Counted from the first letter of the stretch, positions 6,605-19,403 are shown. The stretch is DNA of 64,000 bases from Acidobacteriaceae bacterium (GCA_003170825.1 PMYL01000059.1:136647-200646), one strand, 5' to 3'. The notes: generated by a model from the sequence alone, not told the origin. Numbers and translations: made by a program.

Positions 6605-8074
6605 TCAGTGGGCGCCATGTTTTACAGCGGCGGGAGATCCGGCGTGCTGCAAGGAAGCAACTGGGAGCGTTACGGAGATCCGCGCTCCGCCGCTCTCGCG
6701 ATTGCCGGCCGCGACTGCGCCGCCGTGAGCACGCGCCACCGCATCGACGAAGGCCAGGCCCAGCCCGTGGCCGTTCGACTCTTTTCCCTTCACCCTGCGC
6801 TCGAACAAATGAGGCAAGACCTCCGCATCGAAGCCCGGCCCATCGTCTTCCAGGATGAACGAAGCAGCATCGTCTTCGGCCATCAGCCGCAGGTTGACCG
6901 TGCAGGCGGCGGGCAAGTGCTTCAGCTCATTGTCGAACAGATTGGCAATCATGCGATGGAGCAGCGCCGCATCGGCCTCGATGGTGAGCGGACCGCCGCT
7001 GTGCAGCCTGATTTGAAGACCCTTTTCCGACATCGAGGGCTCGTACAGATTGATCATGATTCTCAGCAATTCGTCCAGGTCGACCGGAACACGGTTCAGC
7101 CGAAGCGCGTCTGCCTTGGCCTCAGCCACATCCAGCGATTTATTGAGAAAATCGGTCAGCCGATCCAGTTCCTCGATAACGGAGACGATCGGCTCGGCCT
7201 GCTCGATCTGCGTGACCGCGGACAAAGACATCTCCAGCTTTCCGCGAATTGCCGTGAGCGGACTGCGCAGATCGTGCGCCAGCGAATCCGTGATGGTGTG
7301 CAACTGGCGTATCGAACTTTCGATGCGATCGAGCATGTGATTCAGCGTCAGGGCAAGGTTGCCGACTTCGTCCTTGCGCGCAGTCGTTGGCACCCTGGCA
7401 TTCAGGTCGGAATGGCCGATTCTCGAAGCTGCTTCGGTGATTTCGCGCACGTGAGTCAGCATGCGCCGGGTGGTAAAGAAGACGATGCCAAATCCGAAAA
7501 GAACAAGCAACAACCAGAACAAAAAGAATCGCAGGCCAAGGTTCCTCAGCACCCGCAACTCGTCGCGCTCTGAAAGTCCAAGATAGATATAACTTCCGTC
7601 GTCTATGCGAATTGATGCCACGCGAAAAGGAATCGCGAGCCCCTGGACATGAAGATCCGTAGGTCGATGAGGAACAATCCTGGTTGCCCGAATGGCCTTC
7701 AGGTTCGGCTCGCCGCTTCCCGCGCCAACCCACAGCTTGAGCGAACCGTCGCCGCCGGTTTGTAGGAAGAAAACCGAATCGTTTGAGCTGCCCTGTGAGA
7801 GCAGCTTGTTCGGTACTTCCTTTCCCGCTAACTCCGCCACTTCTCCCACAACGCGGCCGTAGAGTGCGTCCTTCGGCGTCCGCTCGGCGACATCGCCCAG
7901 AACTTCAACCTCTCCCGACAGCCATGCGTCGCTGCGCCGCTGAATATCGCTGGCGACAAAGCGATGAAGAAAGGCGAAGACTAGCATGGTTCCAACCGCA
8001 AACGCGAGCGTGGCCCACAACGAGATACGCCAGGCGGCGCTGCGCATGATGGGCTTATCGGTCTTTGAGGACAT
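6605..8074 (-). CDS. HAMP-domain sensor histidine kinase
   Basis: HAMP region, H-box SLAHDLRSPLTAIRGK, G-box EDDGPGFD; overlaps response regulator gene. Confidence 0.93.
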   Translation of the reverse strand: MSSKTDKPIMRSAAWRISLWATLAFAVGTMLVFAFLHRFVASDIQRRSDAWLSGEVEVLGDVAERTPKDALYGRVVGEVAELAGKEVPNKLLSQGSSNDSVFFLQTGGDGSLKLWVGAGSGEPNLKAIRATRIVPHRPTDLHVQGLAIPFRVASIRIDDGSYIYLGLSERDELRVLRNLGLRFFLFWLLLVLFGFGIVFFTTRRMLTHVREITEAASRIGHSDLNARVPTTARKDEVGNLALTLNHMLDRIESSIRQLHTITDSLAHDLRSPLTAIRGKLEMSLSAVTQIEQAEPIVSVIEELDRLTDFLNKSLDVAEAKADALRLNRVPVDLDELLRIMINLYEPSMSEKGLQIRLHSGGPLTIEADAALLHRMIANLFDNELKHLPAACTVNLRLMAEDDAASFILEDDGPGFDAEVLPHLFERRVKGKESNGHGLGLAFVDAVARAHGGAVAAGNRESGGARISVTLPVASLQHAGSPAAVKHGAH

Positions 8075-8732
8075 AGCCCACCCCTCTAAGTGTTCGAATC
8101 AAAGGCTGCTGCCCTTGGCCATCCACCTTCCCGCGCAATCGATAGATGTGAACATCCACAACGTTGGTATCCGGTTGGATGCGCATGCCCCAGACCTTGT
8201 CAAGAATCATTGAACGCGTAACGACGCGGCCTGCGTTCCGGCAAAGATACTCCAGAAGCACAAACTCCTGGGAGGTGAGTTGCAAGACCTGTCCTGACCG
8301 GGTCGCCTCGCGCCGCAGCAGATCCAACTCCAGATCAAGCACGCGCAATCTGGTTGCCTCGCTGCCAGGCGGGCTGTTTCGTTTAAGCAGGTTGCGCACT
8401 CTGGCCAGCAGCTCCGCGAGCGCGAATGGCTTGGTCAGGTAATCGTCCCCGCCTTGCTCCAGGCCCCGCACCCTGTCATCGACGCTCCGCCGCGCCGATA
8501 GAATCAGCACCGGTGCGCTGAGTCCCTGTTGACGCAGCTTGAGGATCAAGCTGATGCCGTCCTGGTCCGGCAGCCCAAGGTCGACGATCAGTATGTCAAA
8601 CTGGCCATCGACCGCCAGCCGCTCGGCAGTCTTGCCATCCGCTGCCGCTTCCACCTGATACCCCGCCTCCTCAAGCGAGGATCGCAGGAAACTTTGTATA
8701 TCGATTTCGTCTTCAACCAGCAGAAGCCGCAT
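8055..8732 (-). CDS. OmpR-family response regulator
   Basis: Receiver domain (VDLGLPDQDG, KPFALAELLARV) and winged-helix C-terminus. Confidence 0.95.
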   Translation of the reverse strand: MRLLLVEDEIDIQSFLRSSLEEAGYQVEAAADGKTAERLAVDGQFDILIVDLGLPDQDGISLILKLRQQGLSAPVLILSARRSVDDRVRGLEQGGDDYLTKPFALAELLARVRNLLKRNSPPGSEATRLRVLDLELDLLRREATRSGQVLQLTSQEFVLLEYLCRNAGRVVTRSMILDKVWGMRIQPDTNVVDVHIYRLRGKVDGQGQQPLIRTLRGVGYVLKDR

Positions 8733-9094: not shown

Positions 9095-10018
9095 ATGAAC
9101 ACATTGAACACAACGCCGTTCGCGGATGTTTTCAGAGCATCCATGCCGCTGCCCGCGGCACTCGACCCGCACTTCGAGGAGGCGCTTCGTCATGTGCTCG
9201 ACAATCCCGGCAGCCTCATCCGGCCGCGGTTGGTCTTTCAGGTGGCGACGGCGTACGGCATGGATGCCGCTCCCGCCAGAGACCTGGCCATCGCGCTCGA
9301 ATACTTCCATACTGCTTCGCTAATATTCGATGACCTTCCATGCATGGATAATGCCTTGGAACGGCGCGGAGTTCCCTGTGTTCATTTCGAATTCGGCGAG
9401 GCGGCGGCGATCCTGGCCGCACTTGCCCTGATCAATCGCGCCTACGCGCTCACTTGGCGGGCAGTCTCCGGTTCTTCGCCGCATGTGCAATCGCGCGCGC
9501 TGGCCTACATTGAGCAGTGTCTCGGCGTGGAAGGCCTGCTCAACGGCCAGAGCCTCGATCTGCACTACTCAACCTTGCCTCACAACCGCGAGACGACCGA
9601 GCGCATTGCGCGGGGCAAGACGGTTCCGTTGATCCGGCTCACGCTGGTTCTGCCGGCCATGCTGGGCGGCGCTTCAGTGCGGGAGATTCAGCTTCTGGAG
9701 CGGATTGCTCTGTATTGGGGCCTGGGCTACCAGATGGTCGATGACTTAAAGGATGTGCTGGGAAGCGCTGCCCAGGCCGGGAAGACTGTTGCACGCGACC
9801 TGCTGCTTGACCGGCCCAACGTAGCATCCGCGATGGGCATTCCCTGCGCCGTCGAGCGTCTCACTCGCTTCATTCATCTGGGAGACAGAACTCTCCACCG
9901 GCTTCTGCAATCGAGGTTGGGCTTGTCGTTTCTTGGAAAGCTGCGCAGCGACCTGGAGGAGGAGCTTGTCCGGGTTACTGGGAATGCCTGCGTGATACCC
10001 GTGGGAGAGCTCCCGTGA
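9095..10018 (+). CDS. Polyprenyl (trans-isoprenyl) diphosphate synthase
   Basis: First Asp-rich motif DDLPCMDN with RRGVPCVH, second motif QMVDDLKD; internal ATG at 9095 is a likelier start than 8981. Confidence 0.88.
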   Translation: MNTLNTTPFADVFRASMPLPAALDPHFEEALRHVLDNPGSLIRPRLVFQVATAYGMDAAPARDLAIALEYFHTASLIFDDLPCMDNALERRGVPCVHFEFGEAAAILAALALINRAYALTWRAVSGSSPHVQSRALAYIEQCLGVEGLLNGQSLDLHYSTLPHNRETTERIARGKTVPLIRLTLVLPAMLGGASVREIQLLERIALYWGLGYQMVDDLKDVLGSAAQAGKTVARDLLLDRPNVASAMGIPCAVERLTRFIHLGDRTLHRLLQSRLGLSFLGKLRSDLEEELVRVTGNACVIPVGELP

Positions 10019-11127
10019 TCTTTCTCAAGCTGATCGTGACCAACCTGCGCCGCCACCGCATCCGTTCGTTCATCAGTATCGCGGGCATCGCCTTCAGCGT
10101 CGCGGCCATGCTGACCGTGGTCACCATTCTCCAAGGCGCCATCGGCATGTTTTCCGGCATCCTGTCGAGCGATAGCGAGATCATCGTCTTCGAGCGCAAC
10201 GTCTCTGACCTTTTCTTCAGCAACGTTCCCGCTGCGGCGGTGGAGGAAATCTCCAGTTGGCCGATGGTGGCACATGCCGATCCGGTGCTCTTTGGCATTG
10301 TCTCCAGCGCCGATCACCCGGTCATCACCTGCTTTGGCGTAACCGCCGCCGATGCGCGCATCCGCAAGGCCACATGGCTCGCGGGAGATCGTCTCGCCTT
10401 CGCGCAACACTCCGATGATGTGGTTCTCGGTGAGAGGGCCGCGGAGTTCCTCGGCGCAAAACTCGATGACCATGTGCCCATCGGCCACGGAGTCTTCCAC
10501 GTCATTGGAATTCTGAAGACGTCCAACGGCTTTGAGGATGGCGGCGTATTCATGCCGCTCAACTCCGCGCAAAGCTTCTTTCACAAGGAAGGCGCCTCCT
10601 CGGTCATCACCGTCAAGCTGCGCAACAAGGACGATGCGGCCTTATTCAAGGCCATGGTCAAAGCGACGTTCCCCAACCTGATTGGGCTTGAAGACGCGGA
10701 GTTCACGCGCTCCTATTCGCAGTTCAGAATCCTCAAGGCGACGGCCTGGGCCATAGGCGGATGCGGCCTGCTGATGGGCGGCCTAGGCGTTGCCAACACC
10801 ATGATCATGTCGGTCTTTACGCGGATTCGAGAGATCGCCATCCTGCGCGTCTGCGGCTTTTCGAATACGCAGATTGCCGCTATGATCTTCGGCGAGTCCA
10901 CGGTAGTTTCTTTGTTTGGTGCGGCGCTGGGGCTGCTCACCGGAACCTGCCTTCTCCTTGTTCTCAAGCAGGTTCCCGTTCTCCACGGTTATGTTGACGT
11001 AACTATCCAACCTGTCGTCGTGCTGACGGTGATTCTGCTCGCCTTGCTCACCGGAATCGCCGGCGCACTCTACCCGGCAGCTTATGCCATGCGCATTCGA
11101 GCGGTGGAGGCGCTCCGCTTCGAATGA
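10015..11127 (+). CDS. ABC transporter permease, FtsX/MacB type
   Basis: N-terminal TM, extracytoplasmic core, three C-terminal TMs; 4-bp overlap with preceding gene (GTG start). Confidence 0.9.
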   Translation: MIFLKLIVTNLRRHRIRSFISIAGIAFSVAAMLTVVTILQGAIGMFSGILSSDSEIIVFERNVSDLFFSNVPAAAVEEISSWPMVAHADPVLFGIVSSADHPVITCFGVTAADARIRKATWLAGDRLAFAQHSDDVVLGERAAEFLGAKLDDHVPIGHGVFHVIGILKTSNGFEDGGVFMPLNSAQSFFHKEGASSVITVKLRNKDDAALFKAMVKATFPNLIGLEDAEFTRSYSQFRILKATAWAIGGCGLLMGGLGVANTMIMSVFTRIREIAILRVCGFSNTQIAAMIFGESTVVSLFGAALGLLTGTCLLLVLKQVPVLHGYVDVTIQPVVVLTVILLALLTGIAGALYPAAYAMRIRAVEALRFE

Positions 11128-11846
11128 ACCTACCCACGGCACAAGTGAGCAGCCAGCACCTGAGCAGTCAGGCCCGCGTCGTCCTGCGCGCCGAAGACGT
11201 GTGGAAGAGCTATGACGATGGGGCGATCTCAGTACTGAAGGGCGTGAACTTCGAGGCCGCCGAGGGCCAGACGGTTGCTCTCTGCGGCCCGTCGGGATGC
11301 GGCAAGAGCACGCTGTTGCATCTCTTTGGCGGCCTCGATTCTCCCGACCGCGGGCGCGTCTCGGTCAATGGAATTGAGGTCAATCGCCACCGCAACCTGC
11401 TGCGTCTCTTGCGCCACGAGGTGGGCTTCGTCTTTCAACTCCACAACCTGATTCCCGATCTCACACTCGAAGAGAATTGCCTTATCCCCACCGTGGCCGC
11501 GGGCGTCGGCCGTCGCACCGCGCAGGCGCGCCTGAACCAGCTTGCGGAACGCACCGGCCTGTCTCATCGGCTCGGTCACCGCATCCAGAAACTATCCGGC
11601 GGCGAGCGCCAGCGCACCGCGCTCTGCCGCGCTTTGATGAACCAGCCGAAGATTTTGCTTGCCGACGAGCCTACCGGCTCACTCGATGAACACACGAGTG
11701 GCGCGGTCTTTGAGCTATTGCTCGACACCGTTGCCACGGAGGGCGTGACCCTGGTGATGGCCACGCATGACCGCGGCCTGGCCAAGCGCTGCGACCGCTT
11801 GCTTGAGATGCGCGACGGGAGGATTCATGAGCCAGTCTCCGCGTGA
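11124..11846 (+). CDS. ABC transporter ATP-binding protein, LolD/MacB type
   Basis: Walker A GPSGCGKST, LSGGERQR signature, Walker B ILLADEPTGSLD. Confidence 0.95.
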   Translation: MNLPTAQVSSQHLSSQARVVLRAEDVWKSYDDGAISVLKGVNFEAAEGQTVALCGPSGCGKSTLLHLFGGLDSPDRGRVSVNGIEVNRHRNLLRLLRHEVGFVFQLHNLIPDLTLEENCLIPTVAAGVGRRTAQARLNQLAERTGLSHRLGHRIQKLSGGERQRTALCRALMNQPKILLADEPTGSLDEHTSGAVFELLLDTVATEGVTLVMATHDRGLAKRCDRLLEMRDGRIHEPVSA

Positions 11847-13155
11847 TTCGAACATTTCTCCCGGTAGCTCCCCGCAGGTTGTCGCCGCCGCAAGTCACGC
11901 CTTGTTCTGGCTCGTCTTTGCAAATTCCGTTGGCGTGATGATCGCGATTCTTCTGCTCTTTCCCGCACTCAATCGATTGCTGGGCGAATGGACCTATGGC
12001 CGCTGGATCATCGTGCATATGAATCTTGAACTCTACGGATGGACGAGTCTCCCCATGGCCGGTTTTCTCTTCAAGGTTTATGGCGCGGATCGCGGGCCTC
12101 TTGCGCAATGGTGCAGGCCTGTTCTGTGGGTGTGGTCCGCGTCGCTCGGCGTGGGGGCGTACTCCTGGCTCTCCGGCCACTCCAGCGGCAAGCTGTTTCT
12201 CGATTGGAGCGGCTACGCGCGCATCTTCTTCCCGCTGGCAATGATTGCCCTGTGGCTCTTGCTCGCCGCCTCGTTCGTCTACGAATGGAAGAATGCGGCC
12301 AACTCGACGCTCGCCGCGCGCGGCGCGAAGCTGCTTGGCCTCGTGCTTCTGCTGATTGTTCCCATCGTGATGTACATCGCTTCCAGCCCCGGCTTCTATC
12401 CGGCCATCAATCCCGACACCGGCGGGCCCACTGGAGCAAGCCAGCTTGAATCGTCTCTCATCATTGTGGCGATTCTGCTCATGCTTCCCTTCGGCCTCAC
12501 GCGGCGCAAAGCAGGGCATTCCCGGATAATTGCAATTGCCTGGGCAATCATGGCCGCGGAATTCCTCCTCTGCTTTGCGCTCGGCCGCGCCGACATCAGC
12601 CATCATCGCCCCGCGCAGTATCTCTCGCTCGGCAGCCTTCTCATCTGGGTGCCGCTCACTGCCGCCTATTATGCGGCCTTCGAGTGGCACGCAAACACAC
12701 GCCGCTGGCGCATCGCCTTCCTTTGCTGGTGGTCGGCGCTGGTCCTCACCGGCTGGGTTCTCTTTCTTCCCGGGATTCTCGACCACTTCAAATTCACCGA
12801 CGGTCTCGTTGGCCACTCGCTGTTAGCTATGGCCGGCTTCACATCCAGCCTGCTGATCTTCGTCCTGGTCCAACTGCTCGGTGAGGGCGGATGGATATTC
12901 AATCGCACGAGGTCTTTCTATGGATGGAACATTGCTGTCCTGGCGTACGTCGTGTTGATGTCGGCCGCAGGCTGGCGCGAGGGCTTTGACCCAACCTTTA
13001 CCATCGTGCCCGGAATGGCGCGCAATGCCATCTATATTCTTCGCCTCGTTGTTGGACTCGTGATGCTGGCCTCCTCCCTGGACTGGCTCATCGACGCCAC
13101 AACACTGCTTCGCGAACCCGCTCTTGTTCCCACAGCACAGGAGGTAACAGCATGA
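11827..13155 (+). CDS. Heme-copper oxidase (CcoN/NorB)-like subunit I homologue, apparently degenerate
   Basis: About 12 TM; HMNLELYGW (helix II-like) and HFKFTDGLVGHSLLAMAGF (helix X-like); ATG at 11827 preferred. Confidence 0.65.
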   Translation: MSQSPRDSNISPGSSPQVVAAASHALFWLVFANSVGVMIAILLLFPALNRLLGEWTYGRWIIVHMNLELYGWTSLPMAGFLFKVYGADRGPLAQWCRPVLWVWSASLGVGAYSWLSGHSSGKLFLDWSGYARIFFPLAMIALWLLLAASFVYEWKNAANSTLAARGAKLLGLVLLLIVPIVMYIASSPGFYPAINPDTGGPTGASQLESSLIIVAILLMLPFGLTRRKAGHSRIIAIAWAIMAAEFLLCFALGRADISHHRPAQYLSLGSLLIWVPLTAAYYAAFEWHANTRRWRIAFLCWWSALVLTGWVLFLPGILDHFKFTDGLVGHSLLAMAGFTSSLLIFVLVQLLGEGGWIFNRTRSFYGWNIAVLAYVVLMSAAGWREGFDPTFTIVPGMARNAIYILRLVVGLVMLASSLDWLIDATTLLREPALVPTAQEVTA

Positions 13156-13562
13156 GCCGTCCCATCCTCATCGGCTACCAGTTGCTTATCGGCTTCTCCG
13201 ACGCAATGACCGGCGCGCTGCTCATCATCGCTCCGGTATTCGCTCTCGGGCTCATGCGCTTGCGCGCGCCCGCCGATGCGCTGCCGTTTGTGTCGTTCAT
13301 CGGCGCGTTTGTTCTCTCCGTCGGCCTCGCCTGCCTTTATGGCGCTTTTGTGATTGCGCGCCGCGGGAGCCCGTGCAAGCTTCAAGTTGTCTGGCTGCTC
13401 ACGGCCATCACTCGCGCCAGTGTGGCCATCTTCGTCGTAGGGCAGATTCTGGCGCACACGCTCGGAGCGGGCTGGCTGAGTGTCGTCCTCTCCGATGGCG
13501 CCTGCGTTATGATTCAGGCCATTGGTCTGCGCAAAGGCTGGCTGGCCCATGTTGCGCGGTGA
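13152..13562 (+). CDS. Small four-TM membrane protein of unknown function
   Basis: Hydrophobic ORF with 4-bp overlap to upstream gene. Confidence 0.75.
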   Translation: MSRPILIGYQLLIGFSDAMTGALLIIAPVFALGLMRLRAPADALPFVSFIGAFVLSVGLACLYGAFVIARRGSPCKLQVVWLLTAITRASVAIFVVGQILAHTLGAGWLSVVLSDGACVMIQAIGLRKGWLAHVAR

Positions 13563-15495
13563 AAGGCGTACATCCGGATGGCAGGGCGCCAGCCTTGTCG
13601 CCATCACGTATGTCTATTTCCTGATCTTTGCGCAGTTTGCCTTTCTCAAGCGGCTCGCTAGCCTCGGCGTTGCCGGCGCACACTTGACCTCCGTGATGGC
13701 GGCGATGGCCGTCGGCGGAATTCTGCTTAGCTTGCTTGCGCCGCGGCTGAGCCTCTGGCCCTCGCCAAACCTGCGGCTCCGCGTTGGACTCAGTGCTTCG
13801 TGTGCGGCGGCGTTCCTTTCGCTTCTTCCGCTCGGCCTCGTCGCGAGCATGGCTGTTTCGTTCCTGATTGGCGCCGGGCTGGGCCTGCTCACCGTCACGC
13901 TTGTCACTCACCTGCGCCAATGGACGGGCAATCGGTTTCCGCTTCTGCTTGTCGGCCTGGGCACCGGCGTAGGCTATCTTGTCTGCAACCTTCCCCCATT
14001 CTTCACTGCCTCCGCAGAGGTACAGGCCGCAACGGCAGGCGTGTTGTGTCTCGCTGGAATCTTAGTAACTCTGAGGCCAACGCGTATAACTCCAGAAGAT
14101 GCGGAGATTCCTCCGCAACCTGCTGTCTCATTTCTCCGCGTGCTGGCTTGCTTCACGGCGCTAGTCTGGCTCGATTCCGCAGCTTTCTTTATCATTCAGA
14201 ACACTCCAGAGTTGAAGGCCGGAACATGGGAGGGATCGGCTCACCTCTGGGCAAACGGTTTGATTCATCTTGCAGCAGCACTTGCAAGCGCATGGTTCCT
14301 GCGCCGCCGGGGTCTCTCGTTTGTTCTCTCTGTCGCGTTTCTCGCGCTTGGCTTCGCATGCCTGCTCCTGCTCGATCCCGGTCGCGCCCTTCTGGCATCT
14401 GTCTTTTATCCCATTGGCGTCTCGCTTTACTCGGTTGCACTTATCGCCTATCCCGCGCTTCTTGGCGCGGCCACTTCCACTGCGGAGCGTGGCCGCCAGG
14501 CCGGATGGCTCTACGCCATTGCCGGCTGGTCCGGCTCCGCCCTGGGAATCGGCATGGGCCAAAACCTCGGTTATGTTCCGCCGCTGTTTGTGCTGGCGGC
14601 AGGAGCCGTCATCCTACTGCCCCCGCTGCTCAAGTTTCTGCTGCAACGCAAGCGCGAACTGGCGTTGACCGTCGCCATGCTTCTGGCGGCCTTCTATCTT
14701 GATCGCATTCTTCTTGCCGTGCGCATCTCTCCGCCGCTGTCGCAGGTCGAGCGGGGCCGGCGGGTATACATCTCTGAAGGCTGCATCAACTGCCACTCCC
14801 AATTTGTGCGCCCGAACTCACCGGATGTTTTGATGTGGGGTCCGGCTGAGCCCCTTCAAGAGCTTCGGCAAGAGCAGCCGCCACTGATCGGAAATCGCCG
14901 TCAAGGACCCGATCTGGCTGAGGTAGGCAACCGCCGTTCCCCGTTGTGGCTCAGAGCCCATTTCTGCGATCCGTCCGAGGTCAGCGGCGCCTCCATCATG
15001 CCCTCGTATGCATTTCTCTTCCGTGACCGGAGGGGCGATGATCTAGTAGCCTATCTTCTGAGTCTCAAGACCGCCGGCGCCGAACAGCATCAAACTGCGG
15101 AGAGGCTTTGGTATCCCTCCTCTTCCGCCGTCGCTCAGGCCAATGCCAACGACGGTGAACGGCTCTTTCGCCGTCACTGCGCCACATGCCACAGCGCCGG
15201 CGGGCGTACGCGCCTGATCTGGCAAACCAACTTCAAGAGGCTGCCTCCCGATCTTGCGGTTGGGCCATTCTTCTATCTGCCCCCTTCGGGTCCGGCCGCT
15301 GAGCGCATCCATCGCCTTGCGCAGATCGCCAGGTTCGGAGTTCCCGGAACCGATATGCCCGGACATGAATACCTGTCCGACAACGACATTGCCTCCATCT
15401 CCCTATGGCCGCCATCTCCCTATGGTTGTCGGAACAGATCAGGCAACCGAGTCAAAACCCATAAGTACACCACCCCAAAAGGAGACAAACCATGA
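13549..15495 (+). CDS. Fusion: polytopic MFS-like membrane domain + CcoO-like monoheme domain + second cytochrome c domain; C-terminus frameshifted
   Basis: About 12 TM followed by GRRVYISEGCINCHSQFVRP...GPDLAEVGNRRSPLWLRAHFCDP...SIMPSYAFLF (CcoO-like) and CATCHSAGG; 17-bp duplication near the 3' end. Confidence 0.75.
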   Translation: MLRGERRTSGWQGASLVAITYVYFLIFAQFAFLKRLASLGVAGAHLTSVMAAMAVGGILLSLLAPRLSLWPSPNLRLRVGLSASCAAAFLSLLPLGLVASMAVSFLIGAGLGLLTVTLVTHLRQWTGNRFPLLLVGLGTGVGYLVCNLPPFFTASAEVQAATAGVLCLAGILVTLRPTRITPEDAEIPPQPAVSFLRVLACFTALVWLDSAAFFIIQNTPELKAGTWEGSAHLWANGLIHLAAALASAWFLRRRGLSFVLSVAFLALGFACLLLLDPGRALLASVFYPIGVSLYSVALIAYPALLGAATSTAERGRQAGWLYAIAGWSGSALGIGMGQNLGYVPPLFVLAAGAVILLPPLLKFLLQRKRELALTVAMLLAAFYLDRILLAVRISPPLSQVERGRRVYISEGCINCHSQFVRPNSPDVLMWGPAEPLQELRQEQPPLIGNRRQGPDLAEVGNRRSPLWLRAHFCDPSEVSGASIMPSYAFLFRDRRGDDLVAYLLSLKTAGAEQHQTAERLWYPSSSAVAQANANDGERLFRRHCATCHSAGGRTRLIWQTNFKRLPPDLAVGPFFYLPPSGPAAERIHRLAQIARFGVPGTDMPGHEYLSDNDIASISLWPPSPYGCRNRSGNRVKTHKYTTPKGDKP

Positions 15496-16070
15496 AGACC
15501 ATCGCACAATCTCTGATCCTCGCGCTCCCGCTGATTCTCGCCCCGGTTGCGTTCGCCCAGCATCAGACCTTCACCGTAAATCCGGATTCAAGCCATGTCG
15601 CCTTTTCCCTGGGCGGAAACGCGCACCACGTGGATGGAACCTTCCATGTGCAGAGCGGTTCGATCGACTTTGACCGCAGCGCGCAGACGATCTCAGGATC
15701 TGTCGTCGTAGCCGCGGGCAGCGGTAGCAGCGGCGATCAAAGCCGGGATAAGAAGATGAACTCCGACGTGCTGGACGTAGCCCATTTCGCCGATGTGTCC
15801 TTTGTTCCCAAAAGCTATCAAGGAACCATCGCGGCATCGGGCGATTCCACTATTCAGGTCAATGGTGTCTTCACCCTTCATGGCGCTCCGCATGACCTGA
15901 CGGTTCCCATGCAGATTCATATCGACGGAGCAACCCTCACGGCCAAGACGCACTTCACGGTTCCATACGTCCAGTGGGGTTTGAAGGACCCAAGCATCTT
16001 CATCCTCAAGGTTGCCAAAGAGGTTGACATCGACCTCACGCTGGAAGGGCGTCTGTCCTCTTCGAATTAA
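15492..16070 (+). CDS. YceI-family periplasmic protein
   Basis: Signal peptide; FTVNPDSSHVAFSLGG; SGSVVVAAGS; VNGVFTLHGAPHDLTVPM. Confidence 0.93.
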   Translation: MKTIAQSLILALPLILAPVAFAQHQTFTVNPDSSHVAFSLGGNAHHVDGTFHVQSGSIDFDRSAQTISGSVVVAAGSGSSGDQSRDKKMNSDVLDVAHFADVSFVPKSYQGTIAASGDSTIQVNGVFTLHGAPHDLTVPMQIHIDGATLTAKTHFTVPYVQWGLKDPSIFILKVAKEVDIDLTLEGRLSSSN

Positions 16071-16265: not shown

Positions 16266-16352
16266 TGGTGCCCGGAGGGGGATTTGAACCCCCACGGCCT
16301 TGCGGCCTGCGGATTTTAAGTCCGCTGCGTCTGCCAGTTTCGCCATCCGGGC
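16266..16352 (-). tRNA. tRNA-Leu (TAA anticodon)
   Basis: Minus-strand GCCCGGATGGCGAAACTGGCAGACGC...CTTAAAA anticodon loop...GGTTCAAATCCCCCTCCGGGCACCA; long variable arm, encoded CCA. Confidence 0.96.
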
Positions 16353-17027: not shown

Positions 17028-19403
17028 TTACCGGGAGGCCCCCAAGCCTGTTTTGCCCTGGGAACCGGCAAACTCGTCGATCGCCTTGTAGGTTTCCTCG
17101 TTGCGCAGGATGGCCTCGACGTACTCGCGCGTCTCGGTGAATGGAATGGATTCCACAAACTCGTCGATGCCCTGGTAGGGGCCTGCGGACTGCCAGTCGG
17201 CCACGCGTTCATCGCCCGCGTCGTAGGCCGCCAAGGCATACTCCGTCACGCCGCCGAACTTGTCCAGAGTCTTGCGCAGATAGCGGGTTCCCAGGCGGAT
17301 ATTGGTGGCCGGGTCGAGCAGTTGGAAGGTCTCAAAGTGGCTGATTCCCTCCTCGCGCGCCATTGCCTTGCCCACCGATGGCAGCAACTGCATCAGGCCG
17401 TAGGCGTTGGCGTGGGAGATGGCCGAAGGGTTGAACTCCGACTCCTGGCGAATCAATGAGGCCACCAGGTAGGGATCGAGGTTGTTCTTTGCCGAATCGG
17501 CCTTGATCGTCTCCCACCACTGCTCGGGGAAAAGTATCCGCCAATAGGCCAGCGGGATGGACTTGATGGAAGCCGTTGCGGCGTAGGGGAGTGCCCGCTT
17601 CAGCGCCCGCATGGCGCGAAATGCCTCGCCATAGGAGGCATAAATCTGCGCCTCGGCCAGGGCGCTCCACGAAGCAGAGTCGGGATCGGCGGCAATCTCC
17701 TGCGCGATGTAGTCGTTCAACCCAGCATTGGCCAGCAGCCGCGCCTTGGCCAGGTGCGGGCTGTCGGCGGGAAAGCTCTCCTCCAGGGGAGGCACGGAGG
17801 GAGCCTCCAAGCGATCCAGTTGCGGCTGCGCCACCGGCTGCGCCCCCACTTGCGAATCGCCCAGTTCGGCCAGCCGCTGCCGGGCCATTTGAGCATAAAA
17901 GAAGTGCTGGTAAGCGCGGACCAGGGCGCGGTAGTTGGCCGCGGCATTGGCCGGCTTGTGATCCTGCGTCTCATAAAGCCGCCCCCGCCAATAGATGGCG
18001 GAAACCGTCTCCCTGGCGCCGGGATAGAGCCGGATCTGCTCGTCGAACAGGCGCGAGGCGTCGGCGTAAAGCCCCTGACGGTAGCTGAGCCAGCCCGCCC
18101 GCCAGTGCGCCGCGGGGGCGTTGGTGTTCTCAGGAAAGTGAGTGGCAAGATAGCTATAGTACTCGACCGCGGCCGGATACTCGCGGCGCAGCATGTACAT
18201 GTTGCCGCTTGAGTAGAGCGCCTCAGCCAGCCAGGGACTGCGGGGGAAGTTCGCCTCCATCCGGGTAACGATCTGCTGCTGATAGTCCACGTCGTTCCGG
18301 TCCCGGGCCAGTTCCATCAACAGATACAGCCGCCGGGCGCCGTTTTCGTCGCGGGTGTCGGCCAGAGCCTCAACCTGGGCCGTGCTCAGCCGCTTCAGTT
18401 TCAGGTCGCAGGCAGCCTCGGCCACGGCGAATCCGTTGCGGGCCTGCGCATCCAGGCCGGCGCCGCGGGCCAAAGCGCGATATTGCTCGGCGGCCTCCGC
18501 GTAGTGTCCGGCGTTGTAGTAGGCATCGCCCAGGCTGCGCAACTCTGCCGTGGTCAGGGTCGACTCGGCGCCCATCGCCGTCAGCCTGGCGCGCGCAATC
18601 TCCGCCTCCGGGCTCAATGGGTGGCCCAGCAACAGCCGCTTGAAGATGCGCTCGGCCTCTTGTGCCTGCCCCAGCGTGAACGCCACCTGCCCCTGCGCAA
18701 GCTGGAAGCCGGGACGGCTCGCGGCATCGAGGCCGGCGGCTTGTGCCAGCGCCTGCTGCGCGCCCGCGGCATTGCCCAAGGCCAGCAGCACGTTGGCCTC
18801 CAGTTCAGGCGCGTGGACATTGAAGATGCTGTCGGGATAGCGGCCTGTGAAGCCGTGCAGCAAAGCTTCGGCGGCTGCGTCGTTGCCGGCTTCATGGTTG
18901 GCCTCGGCGCCCAGAAAGTCCGCGTAGTCGGCCAGCACATCGCCGGCCAGGCGCGCCTGGCGCAGGCTTTCTGCGGCCTCGGCGTAGCGCTTGTCCACCA
19001 GATAGGCATGCCCCAGCGCCAGATAAGCGGCGGCCGCTGCCTCTCCGTTGTGCTTGTGCGCATATTTGGTTACGCCCGCATAGGCGGCAGGCGTGCGCAT
19101 GGTGGCCAGTTGCTGGGCCATGGGGCGCAGCTCGGTCGAGGCCACAAACGCCCGCTTGATCCGCGCCGTTCGCGCGCGCCGAGCCGCCTTGGCCTTTGGG
19201 CTTGAGGGCTTTTTGGCCTTCTTGCCCGCCTTGGCCGGTTTTGTCGTCTTTTTCGCCTTGGCTGCGGCGGAACCTTGCGGCTGCGCCGACGAATTGCCGG
19301 AGGTTTGAGCGGGAACGAGAGCCACCGCCATCAGCACGGCCAGAGCGCCGGCCAGCAATCGAGCCAGCCGCGGAATGTGAGTTGGGGAAGTCACGACCCT
19401 CAT
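17028..19403 (-). CDS. Soluble lytic transglycosylase (SLT domain with TPR repeats)
   Basis: LIRQESEFNPSAISHANAYGLMQLLPSVG and TPR-like N-terminal region. Confidence 0.93.
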   Translation of the reverse strand: MRVVTSPTHIPRLARLLAGALAVLMAVALVPAQTSGNSSAQPQGSAAAKAKKTTKPAKAGKKAKKPSSPKAKAARRARTARIKRAFVASTELRPMAQQLATMRTPAAYAGVTKYAHKHNGEAAAAAYLALGHAYLVDKRYAEAAESLRQARLAGDVLADYADFLGAEANHEAGNDAAAEALLHGFTGRYPDSIFNVHAPELEANVLLALGNAAGAQQALAQAAGLDAASRPGFQLAQGQVAFTLGQAQEAERIFKRLLLGHPLSPEAEIARARLTAMGAESTLTTAELRSLGDAYYNAGHYAEAAEQYRALARGAGLDAQARNGFAVAEAACDLKLKRLSTAQVEALADTRDENGARRLYLLMELARDRNDVDYQQQIVTRMEANFPRSPWLAEALYSSGNMYMLRREYPAAVEYYSYLATHFPENTNAPAAHWRAGWLSYRQGLYADASRLFDEQIRLYPGARETVSAIYWRGRLYETQDHKPANAAANYRALVRAYQHFFYAQMARQRLAELGDSQVGAQPVAQPQLDRLEAPSVPPLEESFPADSPHLAKARLLANAGLNDYIAQEIAADPDSASWSALAEAQIYASYGEAFRAMRALKRALPYAATASIKSIPLAYWRILFPEQWWETIKADSAKNNLDPYLVASLIRQESEFNPSAISHANAYGLMQLLPSVGKAMAREEGISHFETFQLLDPATNIRLGTRYLRKTLDKFGGVTEYALAAYDAGDERVADWQSAGPYQGIDEFVESIPFTETREYVEAILRNEETYKAIDEFAGSQGKTGLGASR

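Follow-up and report, generated by a model that had tools for sequence, protein, structure and literature searches.

A conserved operon linking an isoprenyl diphosphate synthase, lipid-transporter-like proteins, a predicted CuB-less oxidase-fold protein and a YceI lipocalin: a candidate envelope redox module

Why should genes for an isoprenyl diphosphate synthase, an ABC exporter, a membrane protein resembling a heme-copper oxidase, a transporter fused to cytochromes and a YceI lipocalin lie together on one strand? We have studied such a locus in a 64,000-nucleotide stretch of DNA from an Acidobacteriaceae bacterium, the whole of which we call the window. A preliminary description had read the family mixture as one operon encoding a membrane redox complex that handles an isoprenoid, with YceI as its carrier.

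The seven open reading frames lie at the positions and on the strand given in that description (Table 1). Its assignment of the synthase, the FtsX permease, the LolD-like ATPase, CcoO and YceI to their families is borne out by Pfam and NCBIfam. The protein that it called heme-copper-oxidase-like has no Pfam or NCBIfam match in its window copy, and that resemblance was confirmed by predicted structure. The reading of the sixth gene as a transporter/CcoO fusion was also correct; the transporter half scores under the Pfam cut-off, and its fold is seen in the predicted structure.

Table 1. Features of the locus, numbered from the first nucleotide of the window
Feature	Position	Strand	Basis or remark
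Sensor histidine kinase	6605..8074	-	HAMP, HisKA, HATPase_c (Pfam); divergent from operon
OmpR-type response regulator	8055..8732	-	Response_reg and Trans_reg_C (Pfam)
Dedicated isoprenyl diphosphate synthase (IPPS), putative	9095..10018	+	Pfam polyprenyl_synt, E 8.5e-38; start codon uncertain
FtsX/MacB-type ABC permease	10015..11127	+	Pfam MacB_PCD, FtsX
LolD-like ABC ATPase	11124..11846	+	ABC_tran; best NCBIfam match LolD TIGR02211, 215 bits, under the 307.75 cut-off
CuB-less heme-copper-oxidase-fold membrane protein (CcoN/NorB-like), predicted	11827..13155	+	AlphaFold2 and VIA-align; ligand comparison
Small membrane protein (SMP), 136 aa, weakly DUF4345-like	13152..13562	+	Kept in nearly all loci
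MFS fold + CcoO (mono-heme c) + second cytochrome c	13549..15495	+	FixO E 9.1e-28, Cytochrom_C
Direct repeat, two 13-nt copies (15396, 15413), offset 17	15396..15425	+	Near 3' end of MFS-CcoO gene
YceI-family periplasmic lipocalin	15492..16070	+	Pfam YceI, E 2.5e-21; signal-like N-terminus
tRNA-Leu	16266-16352	-	Downstream of operon

All seven genes had been described as joined by overlapping start and stop codons. In gene order, successive genes of the window share 4, 4, 20, 4, 14 and 4 nt, and comparison of 15 related genomes revealed that the first five are conserved. The first and fourth are always 4 nt, the second is 4 nt bar one gene-call artefact, the third (the LolD/oxidase junction) is mostly 14-35 nt and the fifth is 11-14 nt. 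The last overlap is a local product. Most related genomes have a gap of 11-28 nt between the MFS-CcoO gene and yceI, in contrast to the 4-nt overlap of the window. The fusion gene of the window departs from the reading frame of its homologues at the direct repeat, ending in a C-terminus unlike theirs, and the apparent overlap with yceI thus arises from a frameshift near 15396-15425. Since the overlap at 15492/15495 is not conserved and follows this frameshift, we have rejected it as a sign of coupling.

Is the arrangement conserved elsewhere? Matches to the oxidase-like protein came from 17 genomes of the window's genus among the 36 searched, its own genome counted, and from none of 24 genomes of other genera. 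Around every complete match within the genus nine genes, i.e., the seven of the operon with the kinase and the regulator, keep their order at identities down to about 50%; the regulator is syntenic and 80-93% identical inside the genus. The module and its divergent OmpR-type regulator/kinase pair are syntenic at some 50 Terriglobia loci, and the module recurs in other Acidobacteriota, Verrucomicrobiota and Bdellovibrionota at 35-43% identity. A broad scan of 84,980 species genomes, seeded with a pair of peptide motifs from the oxidase-like protein, gave 79 loci. Hosts in Terriglobia include Terriglobus roseus, Edaphobacter modestus, Acidipila rosea, Occallatibacter savannae and many metagenome-assembled genomes (MAGs); beyond them are other Acidobacteriota, Verrucomicrobiota (Opitutaceae, Akkermansiaceae and others) and one Bdellovibrionales MAG. 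When the loci with full flanks were searched with profiles, FtsX, LolD, IPPS, SMP and MFS-CcoO were present in 42 of 42 Terriglobia, YceI in 40 and the kinase and regulator in 35, a co-occurrence far above chance. The 15 other full-flank loci all have YceI and MFS-CcoO, with IPPS in 14 and FtsX in 13.

As the scan had been seeded from two oxidase-like motifs, genomes drawn from whole phyla were also sampled. These gave strong matches to the oxidase-like protein in 16 of 288 Verrucomicrobiota and 3 of 45 Bdellovibrionota genomes. Wherever the contig permits, these matches and four acidobacterial loci have the oxidase-like gene paired with that of MFS-CcoO. Among the 22 loci of this comparison IPPS is found in 18 and YceI in 19, several of the absences being contig ends. 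The operon proteins also co-diverge, with Mantel r = 0.81-0.97 overall, to which common descent of the hosts contributes, and none of 199 permutations as high. The correlation for oxidase-like against MFS-CcoO pairwise divergence is 0.97, and within Terriglobia the operon genes give r = 0.60-0.86. The families grouped in the preliminary description therefore recur in a fixed order in at least three phyla, and diverge together. We conclude that the seven genes almost certainly constitute a conserved module. Nothing beyond the unusual mixture of families speaks for a chance neighborhood of unrelated genes; with order, overlaps and co-divergence conserved over three phyla, that explanation is refuted by the synteny and is hardly credible.

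Some copies have decayed. One in the same genus (G032:C128, 1958-5942; locus L034) retains the kinase, regulator, SMP and YceI; IPPS, FtsX, LolD and MFS-CcoO were not found there, and of its oxidase-like gene a fragment interrupted by stops remains. Another (G016:C31, 9467-10587; L033) has a broken oxidase-like gene, in which residues 1-85 and 183-442 match separately and the middle is missing. A Terriglobia-like copy in a contig labeled Rhodanobacteraceae (CAJCHN010000024.1; L063) is likely to reflect contamination or mislabeling.

What might such a module do? The reading that we favor, with modest confidence, is an envelope redox module built around an isoprenoid lipid of its own, most likely of menaquinone type, which the module would make and export, with YceI as its carrier and a cytochrome complex for its redox cycling.

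The oxidase-like protein was modeled by AlphaFold2 from 15 sequences (pLDDT 80, pTM 0.83), giving the 12-helix fold of the heme-copper oxidases. The top structural match is NorB (4xyd_A; Z = 24.6, rmsd 4.2, 381 residues), closely followed by CcoN (3mk7_D; Z = 24.5 over 383 residues). A profile of the protein had no match among PDB sequences at E ≤ 10, and it was placed by the fold search alone. The TM6 histidine that binds metal B (CuB/FeB) is absent in 18 of 18 aligned rows and the TM7 His-His pair is variable; true CcoN proteins of the same phylum have both in the same comparison. His64 of TM2, at the position of a low-spin heme ligand, is present in 18 of 18 rows, and His330 of TM10 in every readable row. 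The second TM10 histidine is kept outside Terriglobia, is Leu or Phe in the aligned Terriglobia (Leu in the window) and is Thr in some others; the loss of this heme ligand in Terriglobia, the window included, counts against the quinone reading. As modeled, the protein has an oxidase fold that lacks the oxygen-reducing site, and heme binding may be retained. Because no aligned homolog has the TM6 CuB histidine, it is probably an electron carrier and not a terminal oxidase. The fold, together with the CcoO partner, might have indicated a divergent yet working terminal oxidase or NO reductase, but with the metal-B histidine missing throughout, the TM7 pair not conserved and canonical oxidases encoded elsewhere in the module-bearing genomes, we regard this as highly improbable. 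His24 in TM1 is nearly invariant across the family, and is absent from the true CcoN proteins compared.

The constant partner of the oxidase-like protein is the fusion of MFS, CcoO and cytochrome c. The N-terminal half of its predicted structure adopts the MFS fold (mean pLDDT 83.6), matching MelB (9oli_A) with Z = 29.7, and this takes the place of the single N-terminal membrane anchor of CcoO. The CcoO domain has its CxxCH and Met. Each of the two cytochrome domains contains one CxxCH with a Met ligand, invariant in 32 homologs, as is Asp209 in the MFS half. The pair thus resembles cbb3 oxidase (CcoNOP) in its CcoN-like fold, CcoO domain and second cytochrome c; it differs in lacking the TM6 CuB site, in carrying CcoO on an MFS anchor and in its linkage to genes of isoprenoid synthesis and lipid transport. 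The SMP that lies between the two genes has no Pfam or NCBIfam match in its window copy and only insignificant matches to solved structures. The best of 21 homologs matches DUF4345 with E = 0.0017; the window protein does not.

Is the synthase a housekeeping enzyme, or one dedicated to the module? There are at least three polyprenyl_synt genes in each of 14 module-bearing genomes. Maximum-likelihood phylogeny places all 17 operon copies, drawn from three phyla, in a single clade (100/100 support) that excludes the FPP-type and long-chain paralogs encoded by the same genomes; a CrtE-like pair from two acidobacteria lies next to this clade. Judged by its phylogeny, the operon IPPS appears to be an extra, dedicated paralog. 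Both Asp-rich motifs (DDxxxxD and DDxxD) are intact in the complete operon copies aligned. Chain length in this family follows the residue five positions before the first Asp-rich motif. This is Ala in all operon copies, compared with Tyr or Phe in the FPP-type paralogs, and the predicted product is therefore longer than C15. The IPP-binding motif GGKRxRP is altered in 17 of 17 operon copies (PGSLIRP in the window, PGSLxRP or similar elsewhere), which counts against the quinone reading. So too do three verrucomicrobial loci (L197, L202 and L205) that appear to be without IPPS despite continuing contigs. The loss of the motif lysine was considered as a mark of a terpene synthase, an interpretation weakened by its retention in some Opitutaceae copies, although the motif as a whole is still altered there.

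The exporter has the FtsX permease with MacB core and the LolD-like ATPase of LolCDE/MacB systems. It differs in having one permease gene, in its linked isoprenoid and redox genes, and in its scores, which fall below the equivalog cut-offs (permease 76 bits against 362 for LolC/E; ATPase 215 against 308 for LolD). In other lineages the ABC pair is replaced. None of the FtsX-bearing loci examined has an RND/MMPL transporter gene, so that the two are mutually exclusive, and RND genes occur in non-Terriglobia Acidobacteriota, in one verrucomicrobial locus and in Bdellovibrionota, all without FtsX. Loci lacking the ABC exporter usually carry this HpnN/BstA-like RND gene; L196, L197 and L200 have neither, and some loci are cut. 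HpnN moves hopanoids and BstA has been described as a sterol transporter (PMC10942540). These are the nearest relatives of the module RND proteins, whose best scores of 287-339 bits (HpnN) and 193-239 bits (BstA) are nevertheless well under both cut-offs; moreover, hopanoid or sterol genes were not recognized nearby, and the window locus has no RND gene.

The RND scores raise the question of whether the lipid is a quinone at all. The synthase with its changed IPP site might instead make a terpenoid or hopanoid-like lipid, exported to the outer membrane by the ABC or HpnN-like transporter and oxidized by the cytochromes. The altered GGKRxRP in every operon synthase would fit this. On the other hand, no cyclase or squalene genes were recognized in the loci, the motif lysine persists in some Opitutaceae copies, and the genes that have been recruited (see below) belong to menaquinone synthesis. 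We therefore consider a non-quinone isoprenoid distinctly unlikely. An exporter of MacB/Lol type might also serve hydrophobic stress, clearing antibiotics or toxic lipids together with YceI while the redox genes detoxify them. The adjoining two-component system would suit such a role, as would the sequestration of antibiotics of which YceI lipocalins are reported to be capable (PMC5350466). Yet this leaves the dedicated synthase and the linked quinone genes unexplained, and the two most constant genes encode redox proteins, not the exporter; efflux is very unlikely to be the function. Anti-phage defense was rejected, PADLOC giving weak FtsX-domain matches only.

Other pointers to the substrate come from YceI and its neighbors. 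The window protein matches the YceI structures 5ixg, 5w2d and 1wub. According to published work YceI proteins hold octaprenyl compounds or ubiquinone-8, and a genetic link of YceI to a heme-b membrane protein, cytochrome b561, is widespread (PMC9113575). Genes of menaquinone synthesis are linked to module genes in two lineages. In one acidobacterial family a relative of isochorismate synthase is encoded between YceI and IPPS, as four genomes show (G424, G803, G804 and G805). That of the G424 module scores above the curated cut-off and is a second copy, since contig C45 of this genome groups a further synthase with an isochorismate synthase and MenA. In G455 (Bdellovibrionota) an RND transporter, YceI and MenA are consecutive on one contig, MenA scoring 182.7 bits against a cut-off of 102.15. 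This genome has two MenA genes, one of them beside YceI and RND, on a contig separate from that of IPPS and the oxidase-like gene, a separation that counts against the quinone reading. A sister genome (L209) has the RND-YceI pair arranged divergently to its IPPS and oxidase-like genes, which suggests, without proving, that the two contigs of G455 go together. A search of 15 genomes found no UbiA-family gene near the oxidase-like gene on the same contig, the sole one beside a module-type YceI being that of G455. Against the quinone reading, there are no quinone-biosynthesis genes in the window's own operon and none were seen in the Verrucomicrobiota operons. Neither MenA nor isochorismate synthase was found above cut-off in the window's genome and two relatives, which presumably use the futalosine route.

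The association of YceI with a heme-b membrane protein is shared with the LcoA-BcnA system (YceJ-YceI type; PMC9113575), where a quinone is the suspected ligand. There the resemblance ends: the partner in the module is the predicted CuB-less oxidase fold with MFS-CcoO-cytochrome c, isoprenyl synthase and lipid exporter are added, and the window operon has no cytochrome b561 gene. Three Opitutaceae loci do have one, inserted between YceI and IPPS. Might the module then be an antioxidant of this type, in which YceI holds an ordinary quinone that quenches lipid peroxyl radicals in the envelope and is reduced again by the cytochrome complex, with synthase and exporter only boosting supply? The distinct clade of the operon synthase and the extra menaquinone genes point rather to a special lipid, and we think this alternative unlikely. 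It is compatible with the main model, differing from it mainly in physiological role.

On the dedicated-quinone reading that we favor, the synthase would make an isoprenyl diphosphate longer than C15, as its motifs and phylogeny suggest, and the head group would be attached by the usual menaquinone enzymes or by the extra copies recruited in some lineages. The FtsX/LolD-type ABC transporter, or the HpnN-like RND protein where ABC is absent, would then extract the lipid from the inner membrane, and YceI would carry it through the periplasm. The predicted CuB-less protein and MFS-CcoO-cytochrome c would form an electron-transfer complex derived from cbb3 oxidase, reducing or oxidizing the lipid with no reduction of O2. 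The divergent two-component pair probably governs expression of the operon. The biochemical steps are those that we infer. They draw on the fixed synteny over three phyla with conserved overlaps, the monophyletic IPPS with Ala at -5, the exclusivity of ABC and RND, the linked isochorismate synthase and MenA, the YceI ligands and the heme-c motifs. The redox complex handling an isoprenoid put forward in the preliminary description is strengthened by the dedicated IPPS clade, the ABC/RND exchange, the extra menaquinone genes and the intact heme-c motifs; its function, substrate and direction of electron flow we infer.

Short-chain menaquinones have been reported to favor extracellular electron transfer in Lactococcus (PMC8965153), and a separate demethylmenaquinone has been proposed for the flavin-based chain of Listeria (PMC9094743). 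Separate quinones for separate chains are therefore known in principle. Like the proposed module, these systems pair a distinct quinone with a distinct outward-facing electron route; they differ in organism and carriers, and the Listeria proteins were not recognized in the module. A more specific form of the model is that the cbb3-derived complex, having lost its oxygen site, became a redox-coupled transporter, in which electrons from the dedicated quinol would pass via heme b to the c hemes and drive or gate transport by the MFS half, while YceI and the ABC or RND protein would keep a distinct pool of quinone beyond the inner membrane. We put this forward tentatively, as doubtful rather than probable.

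The components belong to known superfamilies. No description of the assembly, the CuB-less oxidase family or the MFS-CcoO fusion was found in the open-license papers searched, and they appear to be undescribed. This is a multi-gene syntenic system in three phyla, two of whose core proteins match no Pfam or NCBIfam model in their window copies. It connects three questions that tend to be treated apart: the reason for the binding of isoprenoid quinones by periplasmic lipocalins of the YceI family, the possible existence of bacterial quinone pools beyond the inner membrane, and the fate of a heme-copper oxidase once its oxygen site is lost. The system is open to experiment because named hosts exist, i.e., T. 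roseus, E. modestus, A. rosea and O. savannae.

Two further observations concern the surroundings of the module. Outside Terriglobia a hydrolase of metallo-beta-lactamase fold (PRK00685-like) is a recurrent neighbor, found at L129, L131, L224, L225, L227, L228, L104, L086, L087, L089, L098, L103 and L207. In the window, beyond the module, a large open reading frame of 791 aa on the minus strand (17028-19403), judged by eye, has TPR-like repeats and a C-terminal region resembling a soluble lytic transglycosylase.
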